Part shown: positions 42,645-55,752 of the stretch, piece by piece
Numbering within the stretch: position 1 is the first letter of the stretch
Layout of the letters: each line of letters starts with the position of its first letter
NCBI RefSeq assembly: GCF_034087045.1
Contig: NZ_CP139247.1
Span: 1,550,001 to 1,614,000 of the forward strand
DNA: 64,000 nucleotides
From: Chitinophaga sancti
GTDB taxonomy: Bacteria > Bacteroidota > Bacteroidia > Chitinophagales > Chitinophagaceae
Direction of reading: 5' to 3'
Program-made: the position numbers and the translations under genes
The notes under the pieces: model-generated
The model's input: the letters and a program-made list of their open reading frames with translations, nothing else
Database searches by the model: none
Told to the model about the DNA's origin: nothing

Positions 42645-42646
42645 CC

Positions 42647-43387
42647 ATGAAGAAAATCAAATGTATCATCGTAGATGATGAGCCGTTATCCCGGGAATTG
42701 TTAGAAAGTCATATCGAGCGCATACCCTTCTTAGAACTTGTCAAATCCTGCGCAGATGCTTTCGATGCGATAGACATATTGCAGACAGATACCATTGAGC
42801 TCCTGATCACAGATATCCAGATGCCGAGAATCAATGGCCTGGAACTGATCAAATCATTGTCTAATCCGCCCTTCCTGATCTTTGCCACTGCCTATTCCAA
42901 CTATGCGATCGAAGGGTATGACCTGAATGCGGTAGACTTTTTATTAAAGCCTATTTCGTTCGAAAGATTTTTAAAAGCGATCAATAAAGCAAAGAAAGAT
43001 ATTGATCAGAAAGCAGGAGAAGCAGCAGCATCCACTCCTGCACCTGCAAGCGCTACACAGCTGCCACAACACCTGTTTGTAAAAGACGGACACAAGTTGT
43101 CAAAGATCCTGTTCGAAGATATCCTGTATATCGAAGGCATGAAAGATTATATCAAAATAGTCACGAAACAAAAGAATGTAGTGACCTACATGCGTATGAA
43201 GAGTATTGAAGAAGTGCTGCCCGAAACACAGTTTGTACGCATACATAAGTCTTATATTATCCACCTGCCTGCTATTAAATCAGTAGTAGGAAATTCAATT
43301 GAATTGATAAATAATGAATCAATCATCATATCAAAACAACATAAACAAATGTTGATCGATCGATTGAATGTAGCTGGTAAAGTATAG
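42647..43387 (+). CDS. LytTR-family response regulator
   Basis: This is a 246-residue regulator. The receiver (1-120) has IIVDDEP, the phospho-acceptor Asp56 in LLITDIQMPR, and LLKPISF. An Ala/Pro-rich linker near 125-142 joins the LytTR DNA-binding domain, which includes ILYIEGMKDYIKIVT and FVRIHKSYIIHL. It is co-transcribed with the kinase and ends at a terminator before the biosynthetic unit. Its targets are likely nearby promoters on either side. Confidence 0.94.
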   Translation: MKKIKCIIVDDEPLSRELLESHIERIPFLELVKSCADAFDAIDILQTDTIELLITDIQMPRINGLELIKSLSNPPFLIFATAYSNYAIEGYDLNAVDFLLKPISFERFLKAINKAKKDIDQKAGEAAASTPAPASATQLPQHLFVKDGHKLSKILFEDILYIEGMKDYIKIVTKQKNVVTYMRMKSIEEVLPETQFVRIHKSYIIHLPAIKSVVGNSIELINNESIIISKQHKQMLIDRLNVAGKV

Positions 43388-43409
43388 CTAAACCCGCGCC
43401 AGTATTGCG

Positions 43410-43446
43410 GAAAGCCCGCTTCAACATAGTGTTGGAGCGGGCTTTC
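43410..43446 (+). terminator. Terminator after the LytTR regulator
   Basis: A stem of about 15 bases (gaaagcccgcttcaaca with the near-complement tgttggagcgggctttc) has a 4-base loop. The T tract is weak, but position and symmetry fit a transcription end. It separates the regulatory pair from the biosynthetic unit. Confidence 0.75.
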
Positions 43447-43499
43447 TGCATTTAAGCGCATTGTGCACGATATCTAAACCAAGGTTTATTTGGTGTGGT

Positions 43500-43555
43500 A
43501 AACTCTCAATTTCGTCTAAAAGAGTTTTTGTGCGAAGCGTTTTGTTGGACATTTG
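43500..43555 (+). promoter_or_regulatory. Candidate promoter and operator of the biosynthetic unit
   Basis: An inverted repeat AAACTCT-N14-AGAGTTT occupies 43500-43527. It touches TTTG (43527-43530), which is followed after 17 bases by GACATTTG (43548-43555), resembling the TTTG / TAnnTTTG promoter layout. This gives a leader of about 165 bases before the first gene. It is a pattern match only, with a non-consensus first base in the -7 element. Confidence 0.3.
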
Positions 43556-43726
43556 AATCATCGAAGCAAACATGATCAAAATGAAAACGAAAATGTTCGC
43601 CACCAGATACAAGATTTGAAGAGAATGAACTTTGGTTGTGTAGAAACAGCATCTTGTCTAAAAAAATTTTCTAAGTGTACGTTTCGAAGCAATTTTAAAC
43701 CATCAATCAAAACTGAAAATAAAAAC

Positions 43727-44134
43727 ATGGAACTTAAAAATTACAGCACAGTATCGAATGCCTTCTACAAGGTGGTGCAGGCCGGAGCAAAAATAGATGA
43801 ACTGATCACAGCCATCAAAACCACCAGCCTGCCTGCATCTGAAAAGTATGCGTACCAGGCGTTCTGTTATGCGATGATGGCGAGAGAAGCTTCCGGAATG
43901 TTGCAGAAAGGAAAATATATTCAGCAGTACGGTGAGTTCATCGGCAAATCGATCGTGATCAACAACGACTGCTACGAAGCAAGACTGATGCGTTTCATTG
44001 TAGAAAAGAAATTGTCTGACGTCGGTTTTGTAAGTCACAAAGAAACAGATATAGCATTCCTCTCGACCAATGTCGAATCCATACAGGACGATTGTTTAAA
44101 GCATGTAACCTTAAAAGCCCTTTCAAATGTATAA
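43727..44134 (+). CDS. Hypothetical helical protein, first gene of the acyl-peptide unit
   Basis: This is a 135-residue all-alpha protein. The ATG at 43727 follows an A-rich leader; an earlier in-frame ATG at 43553 would add 58 Cys/Lys/Asn-rich residues that look non-coding. Features are A-G-A-K-I-D-E-L-I-T, a YAYQAFCYAMMAREA helix and a KYIQQYGEFIGKSIVI stretch, suggesting a TPR-like or scaffold fold. I do not recognise the family. It overlaps the next gene by eight bases, so it is co-translated with the acyl-activating enzyme. Confidence 0.65.
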   Translation: MELKNYSTVSNAFYKVVQAGAKIDELITAIKTTSLPASEKYAYQAFCYAMMAREASGMLQKGKYIQQYGEFIGKSIVINNDCYEARLMRFIVEKKLSDVGFVSHKETDIAFLSTNVESIQDDCLKHVTLKALSNV

Positions 44135-45530
44135 GGACTCATTTTTCATCCCTTTCAAAGAACATCACGACTCGATCATAATAGATGCTACACAGTCGAA
44201 GAGTTATACCTATGAAGAAGTGTATAACCAGATTGACGATATAGCTGCGGGCATCGAAGCGCTGCAACTGGCACAACATTCTATCGTAGTGATCTATGGC
44301 TACAAGAATGCATACAAATCATTGCTGCTGTTTTTCTCCTGTCTGAAATGCGATCTGATCCCATTCCTGGTAGAAACTGGCGGATTGAGTAAAATCACAG
44401 ATCTTAAGTTCAACGCGCTCATTGCAGAAGCAGCTGTGACAGATAGTATCGTAGAAAACGCCACTGCACAAAAAGTAAATGATGCATACGTTTATTACAA
44501 CCTGCACGATGATATTTATATAGGCGATGAAAATGATCTGCTGGTAGTATCCAGTTCCGGCACTACCGCAGGCACTCCTAAAAAGATACTGCTGGGCAAA
44601 CAGCAAACCATCGCAAACATTGCCTCCAACAGAGAAGCAATGTCTATCACAAAGGATGATGTGACGCTTGTATTACTACCTGTATCATACTCCTACGGCC
44701 TCATAGCACAGTTTCTTACACACTTCTTTACAGGTGCAAAGATCGTACTGGGCGAAAGATTGCTGGGCATCTTACAACTACCACAGCTCTTTCAGAAACA
44801 CCAGATCACGAATGTGTTTATGACGCCCCTGTTGGCAAGACTCATTTTGTACTATTATCAAAAGATACCCAAGATCAAAAATAATCTGCGGTTCATCACC
44901 ATGGGAGGAGACAAGCCACACCTGCCTACATTCCAGAATGTATTCAGACTGTTCAGCTGCCCTATCTATAGCACCTATGGCCTGGCTGAAGCGGGACCCA
45001 GAGTCGCAACCTGCAAATATACAGAGGTACCCGAACAGGATAGTGAAGCCTGCATTGGCCTTGTCAATCCAGGTATCACCCTCCGGGTAGCACACACAGA
45101 AAAATACCAGGACAAGTACAACGATACGCCCATTGGCTACCTGCAAATAGAAAGCCCTTCCATCTACCTCGGTTATATCAGGGGCAATGTGCTGGACAAA
45201 CCTTCTTCCAATGCGGTACTCACGACAAAAGATATTGTGGTGAAGAAAGATAACCGCTACTTCATACTGGGTAGGGAAGGAGATTTCATCGAATACAAAG
45301 ACAGGATCATCTGGTTCAATAGTCTCTCCGATGAACTCTATCATGCGCCCGAAGTACTGAAAGTAAGTATCCGGAAAGATAGTGAAGACAGAATGGAAAT
45401 AGGCGTCTTTCACAGAAATAAGATCAACGTGCCCGAAGTGGAACAGGCGCTGAAAGATAAGTACGACCTGCACGCAGGGGATCACTATGACCTGAAATTG
45501 ATAGAATTTAATAATACCTATTACAAATGA
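44127..45530 (+). CDS. AMP-forming acyl/aryl-CoA (or acyl-ACP) synthetase-like enzyme
   Basis: This is a 467-residue ANL-superfamily enzyme. The P-loop is VVSSSGTTAGTPKK (near 140), the A5 motif is TYGLAEAGPR (near 285), and the hinge/A8 region is ILGREGDFIEYKDRIIW. The C-terminal domain is short, and a catalytic Lys is not obvious. It should activate a carboxylic acid as the starter unit for the ketosynthases, loading it onto the ACP or CoA, similar to the ligases of aryl-polyene-type clusters. It overlaps both neighbours, showing tight operon structure. Confidence 0.8.
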   Translation: MYKDSFFIPFKEHHDSIIIDATQSKSYTYEEVYNQIDDIAAGIEALQLAQHSIVVIYGYKNAYKSLLLFFSCLKCDLIPFLVETGGLSKITDLKFNALIAEAAVTDSIVENATAQKVNDAYVYYNLHDDIYIGDENDLLVVSSSGTTAGTPKKILLGKQQTIANIASNREAMSITKDDVTLVLLPVSYSYGLIAQFLTHFFTGAKIVLGERLLGILQLPQLFQKHQITNVFMTPLLARLILYYYQKIPKIKNNLRFITMGGDKPHLPTFQNVFRLFSCPIYSTYGLAEAGPRVATCKYTEVPEQDSEACIGLVNPGITLRVAHTEKYQDKYNDTPIGYLQIESPSIYLGYIRGNVLDKPSSNAVLTTKDIVVKKDNRYFILGREGDFIEYKDRIIWFNSLSDELYHAPEVLKVSIRKDSEDRMEIGVFHRNKINVPEVEQALKDKYDLHAGDHYDLKLIEFNNTYYK

Positions 45531-46132
45531 CCCGGCTATTCATTGCTGAAATAATACCAGCTGCCGATGACAGCTGTATGGATACGATCAGGCATCATTT
45601 CAGCGATGAATTAGTAAACAGGCTAACGAAATCTCCGGGTACGGGACACTGGTTAAAAAGGGTGACTTCCAGGTTAATGCTTGTAAAGATCTTCAAGGAA
45701 CTGGGACTGGACACAACGCTGCTCAGGGAACTGCATTACAACCCGCATGGAAAGTTAGTGATGGATAAGGGGGGCCTCAATATATCTATCTCCTATAGCA
45801 ACAGTATCGTAGCATGTGTAGTGAGTGAAAACAAAATAGGGGTGGACATAGAAGACGTAAGTACGCCTCCCACTGGCAAAACAATGACCCTGCTGGAAAA
45901 GTGGACAGGCAGAAAGGTAAAGGACCAGATGGATTTCTTTATGTTATGGACCCAAATAGAATCGATCGCCAAGCTATACGACGACAAGGGACTTGCTGAT
46001 ATATTCTACGGCAATCTGCTGTCAGAAAAACATTATACCAGACAATATCTTTTAAATCACAATTACCTCGTATCCATGTCTGCATTGACATGCCTGGATA
46101 CTGTTGACCAAATAAAAACATTGACTATATGA
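45527..46132 (+). CDS. 4'-phosphopantetheinyl transferase
   Basis: This is a 201-residue Sfp-type transferase that converts the apo-ACP to its holo form. The magnesium-binding signature is KIGVDIEDV (residues 103-111), and the second motif is LWTQIESIAKL, where the Glu is kept but the usual Lys-Glu pair reads Ile-Glu. An N-terminal LKRVTSRLMLVKIF segment with NPHGKLVMD matches the substrate-binding region. It overlaps its neighbours by ATGA on both sides. A dedicated PPTase indicates that the ACP of this unit needs its own activation. Confidence 0.85.
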   Translation: MTRLFIAEIIPAADDSCMDTIRHHFSDELVNRLTKSPGTGHWLKRVTSRLMLVKIFKELGLDTTLLRELHYNPHGKLVMDKGGLNISISYSNSIVACVVSENKIGVDIEDVSTPPTGKTMTLLEKWTGRKVKDQMDFFMLWTQIESIAKLYDDKGLADIFYGNLLSEKHYTRQYLLNHNYLVSMSALTCLDTVDQIKTLTI

Positions 46133-46587
46133 CAACGGCAGAATTTGATACCCTGAAGCCTTCCGCGCTACTACCCCACAGAGAGCCAATGTTGCTGGTG
46201 GATAAGGTACTGCACACAGATTTTAAAAATACCATTACCACCGAAACCGAAATAGGGGAGGACATGATATTCCTGAAAGGACACTTCCCCGGTTATCCCT
46301 TACTACCAGGTGTAATCATTATCGAAGCCATGTTCCAGGCCTCTGGTGTACTCAACAGGGTCGCTACGCTGGAAAGAGATGGTGAAGCACAACAGAAGAA
46401 GAAATTGGGCAAGGCGGTGAAAGTAAAATCTGCCGTGTTCTATAAGGAAGTGTTACCCGGAGATAAGCTCGTGATCACATCTGAACGCATCAAGAATATA
46501 TTAAACTTCAGCGAGTACAAGGCGACAGCCACAGTAAACGGTGAAGTAGTATGTAAAGCAGAAATCACTTTATCTATAAGCATATGA
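46129..46587 (+). CDS. 3-hydroxyacyl-ACP dehydratase (FabZ/hotdog fold)
   Basis: This is a 152-residue hotdog-fold dehydratase. LPHREPMLLVDKV is the family N-terminal motif, and FLKGHFPGYPLLPGVIIIEA contains the catalytic His52 and the helix-start Glu. It removes water from the beta-hydroxyacyl-ACP made by the ketoreductase, giving a trans double bond. No enoyl reductase follows, so double bonds should persist. ATGA overlaps join it to the PPTase and the chain-length-factor-like gene. Confidence 0.9.
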   Translation: MTTAEFDTLKPSALLPHREPMLLVDKVLHTDFKNTITTETEIGEDMIFLKGHFPGYPLLPGVIIIEAMFQASGVLNRVATLERDGEAQQKKKLGKAVKVKSAVFYKEVLPGDKLVITSERIKNILNFSEYKATATVNGEVVCKAEITLSISI

Positions 46588-47759
46588 AAAATAATAACAA
46601 AATTCTGATCACTGGCCTTGGCAGCATCTCCCCACTGGGATATGGATCTGCCGCCGCAAGGGAGAAAATACTCGCAGGTGAGAATGGCATCAAAATAAAA
46701 ACCAACTGGGCCAATACAAGTATTCAACCCCAGTATTATGGAGAAGCACCTGTAGTAGAATTTGCCGGAGAAGTAAAATGGGATGATCGGTTCCCTCCCC
46801 AGCAATACTCCAAACTCGGTCTGCTGGCCTGTAAGAAAGCACTCGATGATGCAGGCATCGTACTCGAAGCCGCTGACAACGAAATCGGTTTGGTCATAGA
46901 AACCAGCCTCGGTGCTACGGCTAGTGTAGAAGATTACCTGTATGACCTGTACCGGTTCGGGTTGCAAAAAATAAGCCCGGTGAAGTTTACGAAGACCGTT
47001 GCCAATACCGTATTAGGTGACATATCAAGAGTCTTCAAACTAAATGGTCCCAGTTCTTTGATCTATAATTCCAACAGTATCACCTATGGGTTTGACCTGA
47101 TTAAAAAAGGTCTTGCAGATATAGTGATCTGTGGTGGAGTGGATCACTACACAGAGTTCAGGGTACTGAGCGAGCAGGAAAGCAATCACCTGGTCAATGT
47201 AAATGAAGGGACGGATGCATTCAGTGCTGCTACAAAAGAGCCGGATGACCGCCGCAATATACTGGGAGATGGCGCCGCCTTCCTGGTGCTGGAAAGTGAA
47301 GCCAGCGCTGCACGTAGAGGAGCCAAACGATATGCAGAACTGGTAGAATACCACAGCTGCTTTGACTACCAGAATGTGGAAGATACCACCCGTCGCTCAC
47401 CAGCAGTCGTGAAATCTGCGATCGATGCTCTCAAACCTATCGTAACAGCCAGTGGTAAGTTAGTCTACCTGAGTGCCTACACCACTGCCGAACAACTGGA
47501 ACACAGCGAACGGCACCTGTTAGAAGACCTGAATAAACAACACGAAACATACAGCCTGCGGCACAAAGCCTACACTGGTGATATGAAATCGGCCAGCAGC
47601 ATTATGGGGGCAAGCATTGCCAGCCAGATCCTGTACAGTGACCGGTTCCCTGAACCGGATGCAGCGGGAGAATATCCTTCCGGGTTCGGCTATGCCCTGG
47701 TCAATACAAGCCACGAAGGTGGCGGTAGTTCTCATCTCTTACTTAGAAAAACACATTAA
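46584..47759 (+). CDS. Chain-length-factor-like ketosynthase partner (KS-beta)
   Basis: This is a 391-residue thiolase-fold protein related to KAS I/II. The catalytic residues are lost. Where the active sister has STACASG, this protein reads LIYNSNSITYG, so the Cys aligns with Asn164. The N-A-H-G-T-G-T histidine region reads YLSAYTTAEQ, and the K-C-L-T-G-H stretch reads HKAYTGDMKSA, with the His replaced. This is the pattern of the KS-beta/CLF subunit in type II polyketide and aryl-polyene systems, which forms a heterodimer with the active KS and sets chain length. Confidence 0.85.
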   Translation: MKNNNKILITGLGSISPLGYGSAAAREKILAGENGIKIKTNWANTSIQPQYYGEAPVVEFAGEVKWDDRFPPQQYSKLGLLACKKALDDAGIVLEAADNEIGLVIETSLGATASVEDYLYDLYRFGLQKISPVKFTKTVANTVLGDISRVFKLNGPSSLIYNSNSITYGFDLIKKGLADIVICGGVDHYTEFRVLSEQESNHLVNVNEGTDAFSAATKEPDDRRNILGDGAAFLVLESEASAARRGAKRYAELVEYHSCFDYQNVEDTTRRSPAVVKSAIDALKPIVTASGKLVYLSAYTTAEQLEHSERHLLEDLNKQHETYSLRHKAYTGDMKSASSIMGASIASQILYSDRFPEPDAAGEYPSGFGYALVNTSHEGGGSSHLLLRKTH

Positions 47760-47761
47760 TC

Positions 47762-48511
47762 ATGAAGAATATTTTCATCACAGGCGGTTCCAAAGGAATC
47801 GGCAAAGAACTGGTAAAAACCTTCGCCCGACTGGGTCATCAGGTAGTATTCACTTACCAGTATTCAGCAGAAAGCGCACAGAAAATAGTGGATGAACTCC
47901 ATGCAGAAGGCTTCCCAAATGTATACACCTTCAAGTGCGACATGGGCAATGAGGCAGAAGTAAAAGCCCTGTTCAAATCCAACAAAGAGATCCTGAGAGA
48001 TGTGGATGTACTGATCAACAACGCAGGTATCCGCGACAGCAAGCTCAATGCAAACCCCAAGCCTTTCCTCATGACATCAAGCGCAGAGTGGTGGGAAGTG
48101 ATGCACAACAACGTCAATGGCGTAATGAATACCAGTCGTGCAGTACTGCCATCAATGATCAAAAGAAAGAACGGCAGGATCATCAATGTGACCTCGCTGG
48201 CAGGTATCAAAGGCAACCCCGGGCAATCGGCTTATGCCGCCTCCAAAGCCGCCATCAATTGCTTCTCCAAGTCATTGAGCAAGGAAGTAAAGGGCATGGG
48301 TATCATCATCAACTGTGTGGCGCCTGGTTTTATCGAAACAGATATGGTAGACAATCTGCCTGATCAATATGTAAGCAACAGGGTTGGTAATAGTCTGCTG
48401 AAGCGGATGGGTACCACGGATGAAATTTCGAACTTCATCTCTTACCTGGCGCTTGAATGTCCCGAATTTTTAATCAACCAGGAAATCGTGATCGATGGTG
48501 GTATGAACTAA
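47762..48511 (+). CDS. 3-oxoacyl-ACP reductase (FabG-like SDR)
   Basis: This is a 249-residue classical SDR. The cofactor motif is FITGGSKGIGKEL and NNAG lies near 86. The catalytic residues are Ser145 (INVTSLAG), Tyr158 and Lys162 (YAASK). The C-terminal V-I-D-G-G-M-N end is typical of FabG. It reduces the beta-keto group made by the ketosynthase pair using NADPH. It lies two bases after the KS-beta gene and 15 bases before the active KS gene. Confidence 0.92.
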   Translation: MKNIFITGGSKGIGKELVKTFARLGHQVVFTYQYSAESAQKIVDELHAEGFPNVYTFKCDMGNEAEVKALFKSNKEILRDVDVLINNAGIRDSKLNANPKPFLMTSSAEWWEVMHNNVNGVMNTSRAVLPSMIKRKNGRIINVTSLAGIKGNPGQSAYAASKAAINCFSKSLSKEVKGMGIIINCVAPGFIETDMVDNLPDQYVSNRVGNSLLKRMGTTDEISNFISYLALECPEFLINQEIVIDGGMN

Positions 48512-48526
48512 AAAAAACTATGTAAC

Positions 48527-49738
48527 ATGAAAAAGAGAGTCGTTGTTACCGGTATCGGTGCCATATCAGCACTAGGCAATAATATAGCTGAGATGACAGA
48601 AAGCCTCGAAAATGGCCGCATCAAATACAATGCAATTCCATCGGACAGGTTCAGCACCGCCCACAAGCTATTTGCCAACAACAGGGGATTTATGATGGAT
48701 TATGAACTCTATCAGAGCTCCTGGGACAAAGATGTATCCATCATGAGCGAAGTAGCTGTAAAGTGTATACAGGAAGCGATAGATAGCGCAAACCTGTCAG
48801 AAGAAAAACTGCACGAGCACAATGCAGGACTTATCATCGGTACATCAGTAGGAGCCAGTTTTCCCATCCTGCAGCGTATCAAGAAATCAGTGCAGGAGAA
48901 TGAGGATGACTATGAGCTGGCGCTGTATTCGACTCCCAAGATCTTAGGCAAGATCGCCCGCGCATTCAAACTACAGGGATACGTTTCCGCCATCTCTACC
49001 GCCTGTGCATCCGGCACAAACTCGATAGGCAGGGCTTTTGACCTGATCGAAAACGGCAAGGCAGATATTATGATCAGTGGTGGAATGGACATCTTTACGG
49101 AGCTCACCTATACAGGGTTCAATAGCCTGATGGCTATCTCCAAAACGAAGTGTAAGCCCTTTACCAAATCGAGAGACGGTATGTCGCTGGGTGATGGGTG
49201 TGCCATCCTGATCCTGGAAAGCCTGGAATCGGCGGTAGAAAGGGGAGCACCCATCTATGCAGAGATCAAAGGGTATCACATATTAAACGAAGCCTATCAC
49301 GCTACAGCGCCTCATCCGGATGGCATCTATGCATTGAAGTGCATGAAGAGTGCCCTTGCATATGGTGGTATGAGTACAGATGATGTGGATTACATCAATG
49401 CACACGGTACGGGTACAGGCAAGAATGATAGTGCGGAACTAAAAGGGTGTGAAGCCCTGCTACAGGAAAAGACCAGTAAAACCTATGTAGGGTCTACCAA
49501 GTGCCTCACGGGGCATACCCTGGGTGCGGCAGGCAGTATAGAGGCGATTATCAGCATCCTGAGCATGCAGCACAATGCCCTCTATGCAAACTACGAGGCG
49601 GACGATCTGCCTGAATCTGAAAAGATCGAATTCGTCACACAAAACAAAAATAACATTCCGCTGGATACAGTATTGTCCAACTCCTTTGGCTTCGGCGGAA
49701 ACATGGCCAGCATTTTATTAACAAAATATAAAAACTAA
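48527..49738 (+). CDS. Beta-ketoacyl-ACP synthase (active KS-alpha)
   Basis: This is a 403-residue condensing enzyme with a complete catalytic set: Cys160 in ISTACASGTNSIG, His293 in INAHGTGTGKND, Lys325 and His330 in STKCLTGHTLGAAGS. It elongates an ACP-bound chain with malonyl-ACP, together with the inactive KS-beta partner. No acyltransferase/MCAT gene is present, so malonyl-ACP must come from the cell's fatty-acid FabD. It is followed 30 bases later by the ACP gene. Confidence 0.93.
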   Translation: MKKRVVVTGIGAISALGNNIAEMTESLENGRIKYNAIPSDRFSTAHKLFANNRGFMMDYELYQSSWDKDVSIMSEVAVKCIQEAIDSANLSEEKLHEHNAGLIIGTSVGASFPILQRIKKSVQENEDDYELALYSTPKILGKIARAFKLQGYVSAISTACASGTNSIGRAFDLIENGKADIMISGGMDIFTELTYTGFNSLMAISKTKCKPFTKSRDGMSLGDGCAILILESLESAVERGAPIYAEIKGYHILNEAYHATAPHPDGIYALKCMKSALAYGGMSTDDVDYINAHGTGTGKNDSAELKGCEALLQEKTSKTYVGSTKCLTGHTLGAAGSIEAIISILSMQHNALYANYEADDLPESEKIEFVTQNKNNIPLDTVLSNSFGFGGNMASILLTKYKN

Positions 49739-49768
49739 AAATTTAAAAACCTTTAAAAACTTATAATT

Positions 49769-50044
49769 ATGGAACACAAAGTAATCGAACAAAAAACTAA
49801 AGAAGTTCTCATCAGCGTACTGAACCTGAACAAATCAGTTGATGAATTATCTAACGATCAGGCCTTGTTTGGCAATGACGAAAACCCGGGATTGTTTGAC
49901 GACAGCCTGGCAGTACTGGAAGTGACTTCTGTACTGATGGCAGAATTCGAACTGGAAGCATCTGACTTCGGCGAGGAAAGCTTCAAGACAGTGGGTACCC
50001 TTGCGCAGCGCATCTACGATGTATTGCACCTGGCAGTTGTATAA
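49769..50044 (+). CDS. Acyl carrier protein
   Basis: This is a 91-residue carrier protein. The phosphopantetheine site is Ser46 in NPGLFDDSLAVLEVTSVL, with the D-S-L core motif conserved, within a four-helix acidic sequence (MAEFELEASDFGEE). It carries the growing chain between the KS pair, ketoreductase and dehydratase and probably presents it to the acyltransferase encoded at 54051. The leader before its ATG (ctttaaaaacttataatt) resembles those of the peptide genes downstream. Confidence 0.9.
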   Translation: MEHKVIEQKTKEVLISVLNLNKSVDELSNDQALFGNDENPGLFDDSLAVLEVTSVLMAEFELEASDFGEESFKTVGTLAQRIYDVLHLAVV

Positions 50045-50060
50045 CCATAATTCCAGATCC

Positions 50061-50162
50061 ATGCAAAAAGAACTAGTCAAAAACGGTCTTTCTAACATTG
50101 TATCGCCGGAGGGTGTGCGTAGCATCAGAAGGCCTTTCAGGCAGGTTTGCATCAATAAGTAA
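50061..50162 (+). CDS. Possible small peptide (33 aa) between the ACP gene and the peptide array
   Basis: This 33-codon frame starts 16 bases after the ACP stop: MQKELVKNGLSNIVSPEG then a basic VRSIRRPFRQVCINK end. It shares only the M-Q-x-E-L opening and one Cys near the C-terminus with the array peptides. It could be a divergent precursor, a regulatory leader peptide or a chance frame. The short spacing in an operon of tightly packed genes favours translation. Confidence 0.4.
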   Translation: MQKELVKNGLSNIVSPEGVRSIRRPFRQVCINK

Positions 50163-50207
50163 GCTACCCCCGGTTTAACCCACTCATCAACCAAAATTTA
50201 TATCAAC

Positions 50208-50300
50208 ATGTCCATGCTCGAACTCAACGTAGTAGAACTGGAAACCCGTCTTGAACTGGCTGGTGCTACTGTGATCGACTCTATCGAAGTAAACTGTTAA
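50208..50300 (+). CDS. Array precursor peptide 1 (30 aa, divergent first copy)
   Basis: This is a ribosomal peptide of 30 residues, first of twelve related ORFs. The leader-like part reads LELNVVELETRLELAG and the C-terminal part reads ATVIDSIEVNC, ending in Cys. Compared with the central copies it has Thr in place of Ser/Asn, Leu for Val, no poly-Ala tract, and two extra N-terminal residues. The VELExRxEL segment is conserved in all copies and is the likely recognition sequence for the processing enzymes; the variable Ala tract plus I-D-x-x-x-N-C would be the core. An internal ATG at 50214 is an alternative start. Confidence 0.65.
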   Translation: MSMLELNVVELETRLELAGATVIDSIEVNC

Positions 50301-50334
50301 TCATTTTTTCATAAACCATTTAAAACTTACACAC

Positions 50335-50418
50335 ATGCAGGAAACAACTATCGTAGAACTGGAAAGCCGCATAGAGCAGGCAGCAGCAGCAATTGACATC
50401 ACTATCAATTGCGACTAA
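50335..50418 (+). CDS. Array precursor peptide 2 (27 aa)
   Basis: This second copy opens METTIVE-like (Met-Gln-Glu-Thr-Thr-Ile-Val-Glu-Leu-Glu), with SRIEQ in place of SRVEL, a four-Ala tract, and the end IDITINCD. It is the only copy in which the Cys is followed by another residue (Asp). The upstream leader aaaccatttaaaacttacac is related to that of the central copies. It lies 34 bases after copy 1. Confidence 0.65.
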   Translation: MQETTIVELESRIEQAAAAIDITINCD

Positions 50419-50451
50419 TTAAGATTCTTAAACCTTTTAAAACTTAACAAA

Positions 50452-50538
50452 ATGCAAGAGTTAAACATCGTAGAACTGGAAAGCCGCGTAGAACTGGCGG
50501 CAGCAGCAGCAGCAATCGACATCACAATCAATTGCTAA
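50452..50538 (+). CDS. Array precursor peptide 3 (28 aa, first of nine near-identical units)
   Basis: Leader MQELNIVELESRVEL, six Ala, then IDITINC with C-terminal Cys. It is preceded by ccttttaaaacttaacaaa, the leader shared by all central copies. The codon for Glu3 is gag (gaa in later copies), a small mark of divergence from the rest. No signal peptide or lipobox is present, so the peptide is made in the cytoplasm. Confidence 0.7.
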   Translation: MQELNIVELESRVELAAAAAAIDITINC

Positions 50539-50607
50539 TTGCTCAGCAGCTATTCAGGCAATAGCTCATTGAACAACCTTTTTTCAACCCTTTTAAAGCT
50601 TAACAAA

Positions 50608-50694
50608 ATGCAGGAATTAAACATCGTAGAACTGGAAAACCGCGTAGAACTGGCGGCAGCAGCAGCAGCAATCGACATCACAATCAATTGCTAA
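50608..50694 (+). CDS. Array precursor peptide 4 (28 aa, Asn variant)
   Basis: Same as copy 3 except ELENR in place of ELESR at residue 11 (Asn for Ser). It has six Ala and ends IDITINC. The Asn/Ser alternation is the only amino-acid difference in the leader among the nine central units. Confidence 0.7.
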   Translation: MQELNIVELENRVELAAAAAAIDITINC

Positions 50695-50763
50695 TTGCTC
50701 AGCAGCTATTCAGGCAATAGCTCATTGAACAACCTTTTTTCAACCCTTTTAAAGCTTAACAAA

Positions 50764-50850
50764 ATGCAGGAATTAAACATCGTAGAACTGGAAAACCGCG
50801 TAGAACTGGCGGCAGCAGCAGCAGCAATCGACATCACAATCAATTGCTAA
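50764..50850 (+). CDS. Array precursor peptide 5 (28 aa, Asn variant)
   Basis: Protein identical to copy 4 (ELENRVEL, six Ala, IDITINC). The preceding spacer is also the same as the one before copy 4, indicating recent duplication of the whole 156-base unit. Confidence 0.7.
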   Translation: MQELNIVELENRVELAAAAAAIDITINC

Positions 50851-50918
50851 TTGCTCAGCAGCTATTCAGGCAATAGCTTATTGAACCCCTTTTTTCAACC
50901 CTTTTAAAACTTAACAAA

Positions 50919-51002
50919 ATGCAGGAATTAAACATCGTAGAACTGGAAAACCGCGTAGAACTGGCGGCAGCAGCAGCAATCGACATCACAATCAATTGCT
51001 AA
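50919..51002 (+). CDS. Array precursor peptide 6 (27 aa, Asn variant, five Ala)
   Basis: ELENR leader with a five-Ala tract, one GCA codon fewer than its neighbours, and the same IDITINC end. The spacer before it is slightly different (cttattgaacccctttttt in place of ctcattgaacaaccttttt). Confidence 0.7.
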   Translation: MQELNIVELENRVELAAAAAIDITINC

Positions 51003-51071
51003 TTGCTCAGCAGCTATTCAGGCAATAGCTCATTGAACAACCTTTTTTCAACCCTTTTAAAACTTAACAAG

Positions 51072-51155
51072 ATGCAGGAATTAAACATCGTAGAACTGGA
51101 AAGCCGCGTAGAACTGGCAGCAGCAGCAGCAATCGACATCACAATCAATTGCTAA
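51072..51155 (+). CDS. Array precursor peptide 7 (27 aa, Ser variant, five Ala)
   Basis: ELESR leader with five Ala; the first Ala codon is GCA rather than the GCG of the other units. Ends IDITINC. Base before ATG is g (caagATG) in this and the next two copies. Confidence 0.7.
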   Translation: MQELNIVELESRVELAAAAAIDITINC

Positions 51156-51224
51156 TTGCTCAGCAGCTATTCAGGCAATAGCTCATTGAACAACCTTTTT
51201 TCAAACCTTTTAAAGCTTAACAAG

Positions 51225-51311
51225 ATGCAGGAATTAAACATCGTAGAACTGGAAAGCCGCGTAGAACTGGCGGCAGCAGCAGCAGCAATCGACATCACAA
51301 TCAATTGCTAA
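51225..51311 (+). CDS. Array precursor peptide 8 (28 aa, Ser variant)
   Basis: ELESR leader, six Ala, IDITINC. Protein identical to copy 3. The leader before it carries caaaccttttaaagc, showing single-base drift among otherwise repeated spacers. Confidence 0.7.
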   Translation: MQELNIVELESRVELAAAAAAIDITINC

Positions 51312-51380
51312 TTGCTCAGCAGCTATTCAGGCAATAGCTCATTGAACAACCTTTTTTCAAACCTTTTAAAACTTAACAAG

Positions 51381-51467
51381 ATGCAGGAATTAAACATCGT
51401 AGAACTGGAAAGCCGCGTAGAACTGGCGGCAGCAGCGGCAGCAATCGACATCACAATCAATTGCTAA
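51381..51467 (+). CDS. Array precursor peptide 9 (28 aa, Ser variant)
   Basis: ELESR leader, six Ala with a GCG codon at the fourth Ala, IDITINC. Protein identical to copies 3 and 8, distinguished only by silent changes. Confidence 0.7.
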   Translation: MQELNIVELESRVELAAAAAAIDITINC

Positions 51468-51536
51468 TTGCTCAGCAGCTATTCAGGCAATAGCTCATTG
51501 AACAACCTTTTTTCAAACCTTTTAAAACTTAACAAA

Positions 51537-51623
51537 ATGCAGGAATTAAACATCGTAGAACTGGAAAACCGCGTAGAACTGGCGGCAGCAGCGGCAGCAA
51601 TCGACATCACCATCAATTGCTAA
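51537..51623 (+). CDS. Array precursor peptide 10 (28 aa, Asn variant)
   Basis: ELENR leader, six Ala with the same internal GCG as copy 9, and a silent ACC codon for Thr in IDITINC. Protein identical to copies 4 and 5. The mixture of shared silent changes with copy 9 and the Asn shared with copies 4-6 suggests recombination between units. Confidence 0.7.
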   Translation: MQELNIVELENRVELAAAAAAIDITINC

Positions 51624-51692
51624 TTGCTCAGCAGCTATTCAGGCAATAGCTCATTGAACAACCTTTTTTCAAACCTTTTAAAACTTAACAAA

Positions 51693-51779
51693 ATGCAGGA
51701 ATTAAACATCGTAGAACTGGAAAGCCGCGTAGAACTGGCGGCAGCTGCAGCAGCAATCGACATCACAATCAATTGCTAA
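51693..51779 (+). CDS. Array precursor peptide 11 (28 aa, Ser variant, last near-identical unit)
   Basis: ELESR leader, six Ala with one GCT codon, IDITINC. It is the last of the nine repeated units; the standard spacer with its hairpin is absent after it. Confidence 0.7.
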   Translation: MQELNIVELESRVELAAAAAAIDITINC

Positions 51780-51816
51780 TTCACAAATATTCTTAAACCA
51801 ATTAAATTATAATCAC

Positions 51817-51903
51817 ATGCAGGAATTAAATATCGTAGAACTGGAATCTCGCGTTGAACTGGCAGCAGCTTCTGTGATCGATTCTATCACAATCAATTGC
51901 TAA
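51817..51903 (+). CDS. Array precursor peptide 12 (28 aa, divergent last copy)
   Basis: Leader MQELNIVELESRVEL with different codons from the central units (e.g. tct cgc gtt). The core reads AAASVIDSITINC, intermediate between copy 1 (VIDSIEVNC) and the central type (IDITINC). It is 28 residues long with a C-terminal Cys. Copies 1 and 12, which flank the array, probably represent the older sequence. Confidence 0.68.
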   Translation: MQELNIVELESRVELAAASVIDSITINC

Positions 51904-51973
51904 TCACAGCAGCCTGTAACCACCGGCAGGAGAACGCGAACCCCCAATTTATAACAGTCTAAAATCGATTCCC

Positions 51974-52054
51974 ATGAAAAGATCAGATCCTTGTTATAAG
52001 TCATTACCCAAAGTTGGTGTTGGTGTATGTTACCCGGCAATATATGATCACTAA
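51974..52054 (+). CDS. Possible small two-cysteine peptide (26 aa) after the array
   Basis: This 26-codon frame, 70 bases after the last array peptide and 55 bases before the M50 protease gene, reads MKRSDPCYKSLPKVGVGVC then YPAIYDH. It has two Cys separated by eleven residues, two Pro and a basic start, and no similarity to the array peptides. It could be a second type of product precursor, a pheromone or a chance ORF. Its position beside the processing protease makes it worth noting. Confidence 0.4.
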   Translation: MKRSDPCYKSLPKVGVGVCYPAIYDH

Positions 52055-52109
52055 TGATGGGCATTTGATACAAATGCCCATCATTTAAAAACCCTTCAAA
52101 TCATTTTAT

Positions 52110-53318
52110 ATGAATCCTCTACAAACAGAAAATTCCTTGTTAAACTATGATTACTCAATCACCAGTGCTTCTAACAATGAATTTGTACTTTCCTACGAGG
52201 GCAAGTACTTTAAGATAGGCGAGTTCATGTATCAGATCTTAAGGGAAGGCCAGCAAGCCAAATACCTGGAAGACTTACAAGCCCGACTTGATAACGTCAG
52301 CCTGGCCGGCCTGAAAGAAATAATAGACACAAAGATTTTGCCCATCTTCAAAACCACAGAAAGCAAAGCCAGTGAAGCGTCCGACGATGGATTCTGGTAT
52401 AAGAAGCAAGTTCTTTCCAGCAGGCAATCCACCACACTGGCCAAACCATTGTCTTTTCTGTTTGGCAAATCATTCTACTTCCTGTTCCTGTTACTAACAG
52501 GTGTAAACTTTGCACTCTATTCCCGTACACACAGTATCGTAGCCAACGATGACCTGCCACTGGGAACTGAGATACTAACCTGGGTCGCCTCTTACTTTTC
52601 CCTCTTCTTCATCATGTTTGTGCATGAACTGGGTCACACAGCCGCTGCCTACAAATCAGGTATCAATGCCAGAAGCATAGGCCTGGGATTCTACACCATT
52701 ATGCCCGCCATGTATACTGACCTGACGGATGTATGGACGGTGTCCAAAAGCAACAGGATAAAAATCAACCTGGCAGGCATTTATATTCAATTGATCATCA
52801 ACCTGGGTCTTGTAGCAGCATTGCATACTATTAGCAACGATTTTGCGCAAAGTTTTGTCTGGAAGATCTATGTGTTCAACAGTGTGCTCATGGTGGCGAA
52901 CCTTGTACCACTCTTAAAGCTCGACGGCTATTGGGTATTATCAGACTTCCTCGGTGTACCGAACCTGATAAAGACATCCAATGAACTACTCCTGAATGCG
53001 GTCACTAAGAAAGACCCGTTCGCAGAAGAGCAGCCCCGTGACTATAGCTTTAAAAAGATCTTACTGGTTGTATATACCATCATTCGCGTATCGTTTATCA
53101 TATTCGTCACCTTTATGGCATTTGCCTTTATATATGCCTCCATATTGAAGACAATTGCACTGATCAGGTATATACCTTACCTGAGTTTTAATTTCGAGAC
53201 GGCCATTGAAGTGCTCAAGCGCATAGTGACCATAGTGATCATATCACTGTTTACCCGGAAGTACAGGAAGCTATTTTCAAACGTCATATTAAAACGTGTA
53301 AAATGGTACAGAGCATAA
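52110..53318 (+). CDS. M50-family membrane zinc metalloprotease with N-terminal PqqD-like segment
   Basis: This is a 402-residue site-2-protease-like protein. The zinc motif HELGH is at 172-176 and the third ligand motif LDGYW at 271-275. About six transmembrane helices flank these. The N-terminal 80 residues (SYEGKYFKIGEFMYQILREG and a helical KYLEDLQARL segment) look like a PqqD/RRE winged-helix domain, which binds leader peptides in RiPP pathways. M50 proteins of this type occur beside modified-peptide genes. It is the best candidate for cleaving or exporting the array peptides. The RRE reading is by eye. Confidence 0.78.
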   Translation: MNPLQTENSLLNYDYSITSASNNEFVLSYEGKYFKIGEFMYQILREGQQAKYLEDLQARLDNVSLAGLKEIIDTKILPIFKTTESKASEASDDGFWYKKQVLSSRQSTTLAKPLSFLFGKSFYFLFLLLTGVNFALYSRTHSIVANDDLPLGTEILTWVASYFSLFFIMFVHELGHTAAAYKSGINARSIGLGFYTIMPAMYTDLTDVWTVSKSNRIKINLAGIYIQLIINLGLVAALHTISNDFAQSFVWKIYVFNSVLMVANLVPLLKLDGYWVLSDFLGVPNLIKTSNELLLNAVTKKDPFAEEQPRDYSFKKILLVVYTIIRVSFIIFVTFMAFAFIYASILKTIALIRYIPYLSFNFETAIEVLKRIVTIVIISLFTRKYRKLFSNVILKRVKWYRA

Positions 53319-54061
53319 ATAAAAATGCGGATGAATGCCTGATATTCTTTAACCCCATGAGTTCAGACAGCCGCTTCTGGACAACCAATATTCCCAAGGA
53401 TCTATTGGAGCGCTTTGAGGTCATCTTTTATGAATATCCAGGCTACAACAGGCCATTTATCAAGCTGGAAAATTTTAAGGAACTGGCCCAATATATCGAC
53501 AAAGAAGTATTGGATCACATACATAAACCCATTCACCTGGTCGGTTATAGTTACGGAGGTCTCCTGGTACAGCACTTATTGAACCTGAACCGTCACAATA
53601 TCAAGTCTGCCGTACTGATAGCATGTGCCAACAGGATTCTGGCAAGAGATAAAGAGCTGTTGTCTGTACTGAAAAAAGTGAGCGATGTAGATATGTATCT
53701 TTTCTGTAGGGTACTGAGTCTCTTCTCTCATGGTTACGAAGACTTCAACAAGAATCCATTGATCGGGTTACAGAAGTTTTCAAACCTGAAACTCTCTATA
53801 CCTGATAAGGTGCCTATTATCCAGCAGATGAATCACATTATCCGTACCTCGCGGATCGAGATTCGGCCACAGTCTACGAGGGCGATGCTGCTGTATGGAT
53901 CGGAAGATAAGATGATCGATATGGATACATTGGATAGTTTACATGAATATTTAGAAAATCTGAGTTTTAAAAAGTTGATTGGTGAAGCACACATCATTGA
54001 TCCAACGAAAATGTTTCATCACATTCATCAATTCCTAAAAACAGAGGAATATGCAATCTAA
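53303..54061 (+). CDS. Alpha/beta hydrolase (thioesterase-like)
   Basis: This is a 252-residue alpha/beta-hydrolase fold protein. The nucleophile elbow is HLVGYSYGGLLVQHL (Ser83), the acid is probably in LLYGSEDKMIDMD near 210, and the His is in GEAHIIDP near 232. The N-terminal strand with FFNPMSSDSRFW fits type II thioesterase-like or lipase-like members. It may release or edit acyl chains from the ACP, or hydrolyse acyl-peptide intermediates. It overlaps the protease gene by 16 bases and the acyltransferase gene by 11 bases. Confidence 0.8.
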   Translation: MVQSINKNADECLIFFNPMSSDSRFWTTNIPKDLLERFEVIFYEYPGYNRPFIKLENFKELAQYIDKEVLDHIHKPIHLVGYSYGGLLVQHLLNLNRHNIKSAVLIACANRILARDKELLSVLKKVSDVDMYLFCRVLSLFSHGYEDFNKNPLIGLQKFSNLKLSIPDKVPIIQQMNHIIRTSRIEIRPQSTRAMLLYGSEDKMIDMDTLDSLHEYLENLSFKKLIGEAHIIDPTKMFHHIHQFLKTEEYAI

Positions 54062-55163
54062 AAATTTAAGGCTCGAAATATTCGAGGAAAGCAAGCAGGA
54101 GTTGAAAGTATCATTTGAAAAGAAGTGGGAAAGCCACAGTCTGCAGACGTTTCAGTTCCTGTCTGCCAACCTTTCCATGTGTCTGCCAGCAATGCCGGAA
54201 TCCCAGCATAAAAGCGCCTATTTCGATATCCTGTCTTACAAGGTGCTACAAGGGATCGATACACAGTTCAGTTCAAAGTTCAGTGGTATAGATGATTTTA
54301 ATGAATTTAATTATGATGAAATTAAAAAGCATTTACCAGCGCTGTTTGTTTCTTATCATACAGGTTCATACAGATCAGCCATTGCTTTTTTGGTGAAGTA
54401 CAATATTAATGTAGTGCTGATAGCAGATCCGCTGGCGTACAAGTTTAACCTGGAGAAAATGATGTACCAGTTTCAGCAGGTGAAAGATGCATTCAATTCT
54501 ACTTCAGAATTCATCGTATTTCCTGCTGATAGAGCAGACCTCGCTTTGCAGATTATGGGGAAAATGAAACAGGGCTACTCGGTACTGGCTTATTTAGATG
54601 GCAATTCCGGATCTAATGGTTATCTGAACCGGGATAACAGCCAGCAGATCCCATTCTTCGGTCAGGAAATGTTTGTGAGAACAGGTTTGCCTACATTGTC
54701 ATTCTATTTGAAAGTGCCTATCATACCGATGTTGTCATATTATGATGAGCGCTTACAGCCCAGGTGGAATGTGTATGATCCTATTGCACCGCCTAAGGGA
54801 GAAAGGAATCCTGCGGCCTATGTAGAACAGAGTACCCGCTACTTATACAGTATATTGGAAAATGCCGTGCAAGCGTATCCTATGCAGTGGGAGGGGTGGA
54901 TGTTTATACACCGGTACCTGACTATAGTAGCTCCTGATGTGGGTGTTCCATCTAGTCTTACAAATATAGCGATCAATGATAAAGCTGGGTTGTTCATGCT
55001 CGATGGCAGGTACTATATATTGAATAAAGAAAATTACAAACTGATGGAACTGGATGAAGAGGTGTTCCATTTGTTTAACAATAAAAACCGGGACGCAATT
55101 ATAGAACGTCCATTGGCAGATGTTCACCTACTTTATAAAAATAGATTCTTAATTCATAACTAA
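54051..55163 (+). CDS. LpxL-like (LPLAT) acyltransferase with C-terminal PqqD-like segment
   Basis: This is a 370-residue protein. Residues about 80-290 resemble the lysophospholipid/lipid A acyltransferase fold: FVSYHTGSYRSAIAF (His103), LAYLDGNSGSNG, IPFFGQEMFVRTGLP and VPIIPMLSYYDE. The usual H-x4-Asp/Glu pair reads His-Thr-Gly-Ser-Tyr-Arg, so the acidic residue is missing. The last 65 residues (GLFMLDGRYYILNKENYKLM then ELDEEVFHLFNN) look like a PqqD-type domain rather than part of LPLAT. This suggests an enzyme that transfers ACP-bound acyl chains to a peptide. The substrate is inferred from context. Confidence 0.72.
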   Translation: MQSKNLRLEIFEESKQELKVSFEKKWESHSLQTFQFLSANLSMCLPAMPESQHKSAYFDILSYKVLQGIDTQFSSKFSGIDDFNEFNYDEIKKHLPALFVSYHTGSYRSAIAFLVKYNINVVLIADPLAYKFNLEKMMYQFQQVKDAFNSTSEFIVFPADRADLALQIMGKMKQGYSVLAYLDGNSGSNGYLNRDNSQQIPFFGQEMFVRTGLPTLSFYLKVPIIPMLSYYDERLQPRWNVYDPIAPPKGERNPAAYVEQSTRYLYSILENAVQAYPMQWEGWMFIHRYLTIVAPDVGVPSSLTNIAINDKAGLFMLDGRYYILNKENYKLMELDEEVFHLFNNKNRDAIIERPLADVHLLYKNRFLIHN

Positions 55164-55168
55164 CTATC

Positions 55169-55573
55169 ATGAAAATATTATTTACATCCTTGTTGCTGTT
55201 GACAACGTTCGCGGGTTTTGCCCAGAGAAATTGTTCTATAAAGGTCAAAGTCAGAAATATACTGATCAATAAAGGGGATTTCTATTTCGCGCTTTATAAC
55301 AAAGAAGGCGATTTTATGAAAGTACCTTTTTCAAAGATCAAAGTGCCTGCCAGCCGTGTGAAGAATGGCGTGATTTTTACCAAACTGCCGGCAGGGGAGT
55401 ATGCGGTTACTATCTTTCAGGATCTGAATAGTAACAAGACGCTGGATAAGGTGATGTCAGTGCCAGTAGAGCCGTATGGGCTTTCTAATAATGTACCGGC
55501 TTATCCGACGTATGCGAGTACAAAGTTTACGGTGACGGATCAGTCATCGATAACAGTGAGTTTAAGGAATTAG
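55169..55573 (+). CDS. DUF2141-family secreted protein
   Basis: This is a 134-residue protein with a signal peptide (ILFTSLLLLTTFAGFAQ) and a small beta-sandwich characteristic of DUF2141: FYFALYNKEGDFMKVPF, LPAGEYAVTIFQDLNSNKTL, and a D-x-N-x-N-x-x-L-D calcium-like loop. It lies six bases after the acyltransferase gene and is the last gene before a terminator. A role in handling the exported product on the surface is possible but has no direct support. Confidence 0.8.
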   Translation: MKILFTSLLLLTTFAGFAQRNCSIKVKVRNILINKGDFYFALYNKEGDFMKVPFSKIKVPASRVKNGVIFTKLPAGEYAVTIFQDLNSNKTLDKVMSVPVEPYGLSNNVPAYPTYASTKFTVTDQSSITVSLRN

Positions 55574-55609
55574 GCGAGAGCTAGCGGTATCGCTAACTCT
55601 TGCTTTTTT
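55573..55609 (+). terminator. Rho-independent terminator ending the acyl-peptide unit
   Basis: A stem gcgagag-c-tagcg paired with cgcta-a-ctcttgc (one mismatch, gtat loop) is followed by six Ts. It begins at the last base of the DUF2141 gene. Confidence 0.85.
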
Positions 55610-55752
55610 AATAAGCGGATTTGGAATTCCTTTTGATGGAATATTTCTTTGGTTGCACAACCGTACATATATGACAATAGGCCGGTGTGGCAGATGCGCA
55701 ATCTGCCAGATCTGAAATGAAAAGATATAAATTGGAGGTTAAAGCGTCGTTA

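Follow-up and report, generated by a model that had tools for sequence, protein, structure and literature searches.

A stretch of 64,000 nucleotides from Chitinophaga sancti (RefSeq contig NZ_CP139247.1, positions 1,550,001 to 1,614,000; hereafter the window, in whose coordinates all positions are given) carries a packed plus-strand gene run at 43730-55573, flanked by two hairpins and probably an operon, which combines a discrete type II polyketide synthase (PKS), twelve short precursor peptides, an M50 protease and an LPLAT acyltransferase. The reading we favour, and regard as probable, is a system for lipidated ribosomally synthesized and post-translationally modified peptides (RiPPs), in which a dedicated enoyl-reductase-free type II PKS would supply the tail and an LPLAT fused to a RiPP recognition element (RRE) would join the polyketide chain to the core peptide. 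This reading builds on gene content and order, on the loss of active-site residues in the chain-length factor (CLF), on RRE-like folds in two structure models, and on co-occurrence and correlations among related loci; the acyl-peptide bond, its site, the polyene nature of the chain and every chemical step are what we infer from these observations. A preliminary description of the window had already proposed the link from PKS chain through LPLAT to peptide, and it now gains computational support from the RRE-like folds, the LPLAT tree and co-occurrence in five of five genomes. The gene list, coordinates and peptide count of that description were all borne out by open reading frame (ORF) and domain annotation.

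The predicted grip of both LPLAT and M50 protease on the leader, with a polyene tail fastened to the peptides, would be a new route to lipopeptides. If true, it would represent a second, unrelated enzyme solution for attaching lipids to ribosomal peptides, carrying its own leader-binding domain, and would open type II polyketide chains to genetically encoded peptides. It would also provide a search handle (an HxGSYR LPLAT with C-terminal RRE, the LExRxE[LM] leader, the RRE-M50 protease, and arginase with [RK]C) and make lipopeptide signalling in Bacteroidota directly testable.

Polyketide, precursor and maturation genes

The run encodes, in order, a 134-aa protein, an AMP-ligase, a 4'-phosphopantetheinyl transferase (PPTase)-like protein, a FabZ-type dehydratase (DH), the CLF, a ketoreductase (KR), a ketosynthase (KS), an acyl carrier protein (ACP), the twelve peptides, the M50 protease, an alpha/beta-hydrolase, the LPLAT and a DUF2141 protein, all on the plus strand. 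The AMP-dependent acyl ligase (44127-45530; PF00501, 2.5e-31, 109 bits) has its best NCBIfam match in AmcH, an acyl-ACP ligase (127.7 bits, cut-off 370), and probably charges the ACP with a starter acid. The PPTase-like protein (45527-46132) matches NCBIfam AusB (2.9e-16, 59.5 bits, cut-off 225) and no Pfam family, while the dehydratase (46129-46587; PF07977) exceeds the FabZ cut-off of NF000582 (116 against 113 bits). In alignment, the KS (48527-49738; PF00109/PF02801) keeps its Cys-His-His triad in the usual contexts STACASG, NAHGTGT and STKCLTGH, and the FabG-type ketoreductase (47762-48511; PF00106) keeps Ser-Tyr-Lys. The CLF-like KS (46584-47759; PF00109) has lost the active-site Cys and both His residues, with a gap at the Cys loop, as have its counterparts in L004 and L081 (loci and genomes of the comparison set are cited by L and G numbers, the window genome being G000). 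An ACP (49769-50044) with a DSL motif in alignment, weak NCBIfam ACP matches and no Pfam match completes the discrete KS, CLF partner and ACP of a type II PKS. Pfam and NCBIfam scans of the genes of the run found neither an enoyl reductase nor a malonyl transferase; malonyl-ACP would therefore come from the FabD of the cell, and the chain would stay unsaturated, an expectation that leans on the behaviour of highly reducing type II PKSs and presupposes that no enoyl reductase acts from outside the run.

The twelve precursor genes (50208-51903), delimited by the ORF list, a tandem-repeat scan and the leader pattern, form one family with ATG starts at 50208, 50335, 50452, 50608, 50764, 50919, 51072, 51225, 51381, 51537, 51693 and 51817; the earlier count of twelve tandem short peptide genes was thus exact. 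Each encodes 27-30 aa, e.g., MQELNIVELESRVELAAAAAAIDITINC, ending in Cys or Asp. Nine of the twelve lie within a 156-bp tandem array (8.7 copies, 96% matches), whose copies differ by Ser/Asn exchange, Ala codon number and silent changes. Of 483 small ORFs in the window as a whole, 12 contain the leader motif, and these all lie inside 50208-51903. Close relatives share the same leader in varying copy number (L002, six; L003, five; L120, four at a contig end; L121, ten; L123, 15), with a C-terminal Ser replacing Cys in 14 of the 15 copies of L123. Leader and position are also kept in C. vietnamensis (L004 and L122, six copies) and in the flavobacterium Hp32 (three copies in L005 and a single one where L132 ends), with different cores such as ASIEIGSVVIL and ASIEIVVEGDVNVK. 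A shared LExRxE[LM]-type leader motif followed by varied cores, a feature of RiPPs, is present across 75 distinct precursors, and ten precursors that were scanned gave no NCBIfam match and no Pfam match beyond chance.

Two proteins encoded downstream contain candidate leader-binding domains. In the structure model of the M50 intramembrane protease (52110-53318; PF02163; HExxH; NCBIfam daptide protease 102 bits, cut-off 300), residues 4-86 match RREs and residues 103-341 match SpoIVFB, making it a likely leader peptidase. The model of the LPLAT (54051-55163; PF03279, 34.6 bits) shows an LpxL/PatA-type fold, placing it among LPLATs, followed by an RRE-like fold at the C-terminus. Although the RRE-like matches of both models are of moderate Z, they suggest that the two enzymes are probably both guided by the leader. 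In the LPLAT subfamily, HxGSYR (HTGSYR in the window) replaces the HX4(D/E) motif, with Arg or Lys at the acidic position in 38 of 41 aligned members. When the LPLAT profile was searched against PDB sequences, the only matches up to E 1 were designed TIM barrels. Between the two genes lies a thioesterase-like alpha/beta-hydrolase (53303-54061; PF00561/PF00975), kept in L002-L005.

From these components a five-step pathway can be proposed. The AMP-ligase and PPTase would load a starter acid on the ACP; KS/CLF, KR and DH would lengthen it into a conjugated enoyl chain (a polyene); and the LPLAT, its RRE bound to the leader (..VELExRxEL..), would pass the acyl group from the ACP to the core. The RRE-M50 protease would then cut in or after the Ala-rich spacer, releasing acyl-peptides of 7-9 residues, e.g., acyl-IDITINC, and the hydrolase would probably edit stalled chains.

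The enzyme set resembles that of aryl polyene and flexirubin clusters, whose gene list includes KS/CLF, KR, DH, ACP, AMP-ligase and LPLAT without an enoyl reductase. Aryl polyenes are thought to be placed on a membrane lipid, and by analogy the window LPLAT might acylate a membrane lipid with the PKS product while the M50 protease processes the peptides separately as signals or bacteriocins. It has the fold of enzymes that acylate lipids and glycolipids, and aryl-polyene-like clusters pair similar genes with an LPLAT, one of them (L124, named by eye) in this very genome. We nevertheless consider this alternative improbable, given that the window LPLAT carries an RRE-like domain and has lost HX4(D/E), whereas the 296-aa LPLAT of L124 keeps HLGNWE, and that the peptide array lies between KS/ACP and M50 in the inspected complete PKS loci of the clade (window, L002, L004/L122, L121 and L123). 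The window differs from aryl polyene and flexirubin clusters in this LPLAT with RRE-like domain and HxGSYR, and in having peptide genes and an RRE-M50 protease built in. Those clusters carry an aromatic ammonia-lyase for the starter; no ammonia-lyase is among the Pfam matches of genes 41535-55573, and L124 has an ORF that by eye is ammonia-lyase-like.

Co-occurrence of polyketide genes, peptides and LPLAT

An unselected search detected this CLF in 5 of 60 Chitinophaga genomes (that of the window, G812, G796, G819 and G828). All five have leader peptides downstream of the KS, the neighbourhood co-occurrence that the preliminary description had put forward as a check. M50, hydrolase and LPLAT genes lie within the same stretch in four of them; in the fifth, G812 (C. 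silvisoli; judging by coordinates the same genome as G836), the contig stops inside the peptide array, and another C. silvisoli contig (L003) opens with peptides, M50, hydrolase and LPLAT. The corresponding search of the phylum returned 2 of 395 genomes, namely the window's own and G410, a weak match without LPLAT or M50. The CLF matches of G410 and G396:C11 (4e-42 and 1.5e-44; L115 and L133) were discarded as ordinary fatty-acid KS by their look; no LPLAT or M50 gene was found in either stretch, nor a leader peptide (in L133 by pattern). Among the best 120 homologues listed, those of the CLF form a discrete group of 38 clusters at 45-90% identity, followed by a drop to 28%, with names including Chitinophaga, Chryseobacterium sp. 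SNU WT5 and Bacteroides graminisolvens. The locus tags of SNU WT5 (CLF, FNJ88_08345; LPLAT, FNJ88_08375) indicate that the two genes are probably near each other.

Three additional genomes, Hp32 (G396), Arcicella (G837, L131) and the metagenome-assembled genome (MAG) NP30 (L081), were examined because their LPLAT was already known, and do not belong to the unselected set. Hp32 has the PKS and one peptide at a contig end (L132); a second contig (L005) carries peptides, M50, hydrolase and LPLAT. In L081, PKS, LPLAT, nine DRC-core peptides, M50 and arginase share one stretch, with the LPLAT first. The Arcicella locus (L131, G837:C76) holds PKS, LPLAT, histidine kinase (HK), LytTR and DUF2141 genes together with a radical SAM/SPASM maturase of the YhhB/FxsB-like cyclophane type (347 bits, cut-off 445), and its short peptides are of the VRGG-/LGG-type in place of the LExRxE[LM] leader type. 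The PKS-LPLAT pair hence accompanies more than one type of ribosomal-peptide machinery.

The distribution of the PKS was also followed on an LPLAT tree. In its corrected form, the tree has 38 rows, including L131, with L003 and L005 labelled as PKS-linked (their PKS half lies on another contig of the same genome). Omitted were the long-branched, short or divergent L022, L023, L027, L028, L029, L030, L062, L065, L066, L070, L084, L085, L087 and L088, as well as the duplicates or near-duplicates L009, L052, L054, L055 and L064. All 14 LPLATs from KS-bearing loci or genomes fall on one side of a branch (86/83; 88% of bootstrap trees), corresponding to a single change of KS label, and none of 500 shuffles gave a number as low. 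Some of these labels stand for reduced sets: L025 is limited to KS, ACP and DH; in L007, L010 and L011 the set consists of a KS with a KS-like partner and a DH, joined in two of these loci by a KR. A repeated origin of the PKS link, suggested by a 56-row tree with four label changes (at least three forced), was rejected, as that result came partly from the mislabelled L003 and L005. One of the omitted loci, L065, carries two KS genes next to an LPLAT on a very long branch and might overturn the single origin.

KS genes accompany 12 of the 24 leader-peptide loci (in the locus or on a matching contig) and are absent from the other 12, which include some short stretches (L088, 3960 bases) as well as L012 and L083, from genomes in which a PKS-LPLAT locus, or the PKS half of one, lies at another place. 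By the preliminary description's own test, the link would be refuted if most relatives had the peptide genes but no PKS genes; the proportion without them is half. This half is the one point in keeping with a chance juxtaposition of two unrelated pathways joined by rearrangement. We hold such a history to be very improbable, since several Chitinophaga species, the flavobacterium (on two contigs) and MAG NP30 (LPLAT first) share the gene order, and the PKS-linked LPLATs cluster in the tree. Of 7 genomes searched, four that carry M50-arginase-LPLAT loci (those of L016, L024, L026 and L017) had no CLF match, so the acyl chain there would come from elsewhere. The association of PKS, LPLAT and peptides claimed at the outset is thus supported as a link, and its scope is redrawn: the peptide-LPLAT pair is the common core, and the PKS an add-on of one LPLAT clade.

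The leader-peptide family, the acyl acceptor and known systems

A profile scan of genome contigs with the LPLAT alignment yielded 29 loci. At whole-genome level, surveys gave LPLAT matches for 20 of the 394 genomes from the family and for 89 of the 395 from the phylum. The phylum matches are mostly short and weak, probably ordinary lipid acyltransferases, and only the strongest of them were followed. Annotation of 53 LPLAT loci (superseded short stretches and phylum loci from L089 on being left out) identified M50 in 23, arginase-fold genes in 12, HK in 29, LytTR in 29 and KS in 9, all lower bounds because of contig ends. Small ORFs with the LExRxE[LM] motif or near variants, drawn from 6199 small ORFs, lie in 82 of 82 cases no more than 5 kb from an LPLAT or an M50 gene; as the motif was learned from the same loci, only its absence elsewhere carries information.

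With a wider leader pattern, the 75 precursors from 24 loci were divided according to the presence of an arginase-fold gene, with L007 and L010 scored as positive as their genomes hold M50, arginase and more precursors on another contig (L075 and L082). [RK]C occurs in all 44 cores of arginase loci (36 with RC, 8 with KC only) and in none of the 31 cores of arginase-free loci, which contain no Arg at all; the loci being related, the split of 13 against 11 loci is the more honest sample size. The window run, with no arginase gene and no core Arg, is in line with this rule. The simplest reading is that the arginase converts Arg to Orn beside Cys, for which Lys can substitute, so that an amine side chain next to Cys matters there. 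The correlation also supports the identity of the precursors and the pairing of maturase and precursor. By eye, the N-terminal ~90 aa of the arginase-fold proteins of L081, L011, L012, L016, L017, L021, L024, L025, L026, L075, L082 and L007/L010 are RRE-like, and that of L081 has a weak winged-helix Pfam match.

In the favoured pathway, acylation would most likely occur on a side chain, since the leader is expected to be still in place at this stage, and in Chitinophaga the Cys or Ser at the C-terminus would be the first candidate. As a rule for the family, S-acylation of a Cys present throughout was dismissed, as only 22 of the 31 arginase-free cores contain Cys, the nine without it all coming from L004/L005; a Lys or Orn acceptor in the window was dismissed too, there being no Lys or Arg in any window core. 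The same hybrid pathway could instead acylate the free N-terminus of the core after M50 cleavage, which is the route of goadvionins and lipolanthines. Among all cores of the clade, whose C-termini vary (Cys, Asp, Ser, Leu, Lys and others), the only shared acceptor is the N-terminal amine, and lipidation at this position is described for microvionin, goadvionins and lipoavitides in PMC13060382. We regard this variant as unlikely, since an RRE on the acyltransferase is easier to explain with the leader still attached, and the invariant [RK]C of the arginase relatives (44 of 44) points to side-chain chemistry there.

Several characterized systems share parts of this arrangement. In the GNAT-dependent lipidated RiPPs (goadvionins, lipolanthines such as microvionin, lipoavitides, selidamides and nostolysamides), a ribosomal peptide likewise gains a fatty or polyketide acyl chain, which goadvionins and lipoavitides reportedly take from a pathway-specific PKS or fatty acid synthase (FAS). 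The lipidated lanthipeptides listed in PMC13060382 use GNAT acyltransferases. The Pfam matches of the run include no GNAT, and its Pfam and NCBIfam matches no lanthionine synthetase, so the contrast with GNAT-type systems drawn in the preliminary description stands; the candidate acyltransferase of the window is an RRE-fused LPLAT, its PKS a discrete KS/CLF type II set, and its precursors another family. Daptides (MpaP) are similar in having an RRE-dependent intramembrane peptidase, an RRE on a second maturase and several short precursors (PMC10036551). For the peptidase, the likeness is judged from the M50 model and its NCBIfam match below cut-off; the window differs in lacking the oxidative decarboxylase, aminotransferase and methyltransferase set, in containing acyl-chain genes, and in ending its peptides with Cys or Asp where daptides have an invariant C-terminal Thr. 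By analogy, the window system would work like goadvionin- or selidamide-type lipidation combined with daptide-type leader removal, yet it is a member of neither the GNAT-based families nor the daptides, whose defining features were compared and not found.

Diacylglycerol RiPPs (DAG-RiPPs) of Chryseobacterium are also lipidated RiPPs from Bacteroidota. They depend on a signal peptide, a lipobox and Lgt/LspA/Lnt (PMC12636315), whereas the window peptides, read by eye, have no lipobox or type II signal peptide at the N-terminus. In peptide arginase RiPPs (OspR, FlmR and OhkR), as in the relatives described above, arginase-fold proteins adjoin precursors with a conserved Arg; FlmR and OhkR precursors end in DD(I/V)LF (PMC12703449), unlike the relatives with their LExRxE[LM] leader and [RK]C core, and the window run has no arginase gene. 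Chitinocin was set aside as the product on its composition and mass (1852 Da) as reported in PMC10239826. No such system was found described in the open-access literature, as judged by the titles and abstract beginnings listed, and the main text of the RiPP-mining papers checked mentions no acyltransferase, arginase or M50. The nearest conceptual precedent is the work reported by Ren et al. 2024 on non-modular FAS RiPPs.

Further variants of the leader-peptide loci were noticed. L083 (Flavobacteriaceae Hp32, G396:C45) encodes five short leader peptides, four like FQVEKLEERLEMASWQCDVLxPGEVDCNF, next to a 689-aa protein with M50-like and MauE matches, a 656-aa protein without Pfam match, and a PPTase. 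In L030 (from the pseudomonadote Oleiagrimonas), L066/L070 and L088, leader peptides, M50 and LPLAT-like genes occur with radical SAM-like proteins (so named by their similarity to the one found in L030). TonB-dependent outer-membrane receptor-like proteins adjoin L081 and L012 (by Pfam) and L132 and others (by eye), and perhaps serve lipopeptide uptake or export.

Boundaries, regulation and neighbouring genes

The preliminary description placed the run between two terminators. A hairpin does occur at each end, and the downstream one (55570-55625, plus strand; -19.3 kcal/mol, z -2.6, equalled by 1 of 200 shuffles) has a T-run. The upstream one (43388-43500, plus strand), between the LytTR gene and the run, is stronger, with a perfect 21-bp stem (-55.9 kcal/mol, z -7.8, equalled by 0 of 200 shuffles); as TTTAAG alone follows the stem, with no long T-run, calling it a terminator is a guess from its shape. 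A consensus terminator scan reported the downstream hairpin by its inner 5-bp stem alone and left the upstream one unreported.

The first gene (43730-44134; 134 aa from ATG, or 193 aa from TTG at 43553), to which no function is assigned, has no match in Pfam and NCBIfam scans, and a homologue occupies the first position in L002, L004, L132 and L120-L123. The last gene (55169-55573) encodes a DUF2141 protein (PF09912) with a signal-peptide-like N-terminus by eye; homologues lie near the LPLAT in L002, L003, L007, L010, L121, L123 and L131. The peptide array is flanked by two plus-strand small ORFs that differ in sequence from the array peptides and have no assigned role, MQKELVKNGLSNIV...CINK at 50061-50162 (kept in L002, L120 and L123) and MKRSDPCYKSLPKVGVGVCYPAIYDH at 51974-52054 (kept in L002, L003, L121 and L123).

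Directly upstream on the plus strand, outside the first hairpin, Pfam identifies a LytS-type HK (41535-42644) and a LytTR regulator (42647-43387). The pair recurs upstream in L120, L121 and L123 at 89-99% identity and is absent from C. vietnamensis (L122). It likely regulates the run; on account of this absence and of the strong hairpin in between, it is not counted as a defining part. In agr-type quorum sensing, precursor, modifying enzyme, HK and LytTR regulator form one unit; here the HK and LytTR genes adjoin the run across that hairpin. A special tie between the window HK and LPLAT-linked HKs was unsupported: the window HK has 31 matches in its own genome including itself, the others at up to 38% identity, and LPLAT-linked HKs reach ~23-33%. 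In the 48 LPLAT loci left after removal of the duplicates or near-duplicates L009, L052, L054, L055 and L064, all with HK and LytTR, each of the two occurs in 24, against a background of 34 LytTR genes in the 8.32-Mb window genome (~0.08 per 20 kb).

M50-free HK-LytTR-LPLAT loci (L008, L009, L013, L014, L018, L020, L051, L053, L057, L060, L063, L068 and L069) each encode a single short peptide immediately ahead of the LPLAT; this peptide carries [ST]C or CC close to its C-terminus (in L014, for example, it is MVTTENVFSKPLSIEELEARFKNVWASVVSFFTDSCCIDTQPPLPPGTGR). A short peptide precedes 14 of 16 such LPLATs (the fourteenth, L029, with a different-looking peptide) compared with 22 of 146 control genes, and the arrangement looks like an acylated-peptide signalling module. 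A broader conjecture, which we put forward as doubtful, is that RRE-guided acyltransferases of the lipid A type make a whole class of ribosomal lipopeptides, undescribed so far and spread across Bacteroidota; its simplest form (one Cys peptide, LPLAT, HK and LytTR) would be an acylated pheromone system, and the window an elaborate polyene branch with twelve copies sensed by the adjoining HK-LytTR pair.

Further upstream, on the minus strand, an ORF at 41062-41235 has a class I lanthipeptide-like leader (NF038153, 16.8 bits against a cut-off of 22) and adjoins a 737-aa ORF and a response-regulator ORF (38424-40637 and 40649-41029, both minus strand), possibly forming a second RiPP locus beside the gene run.

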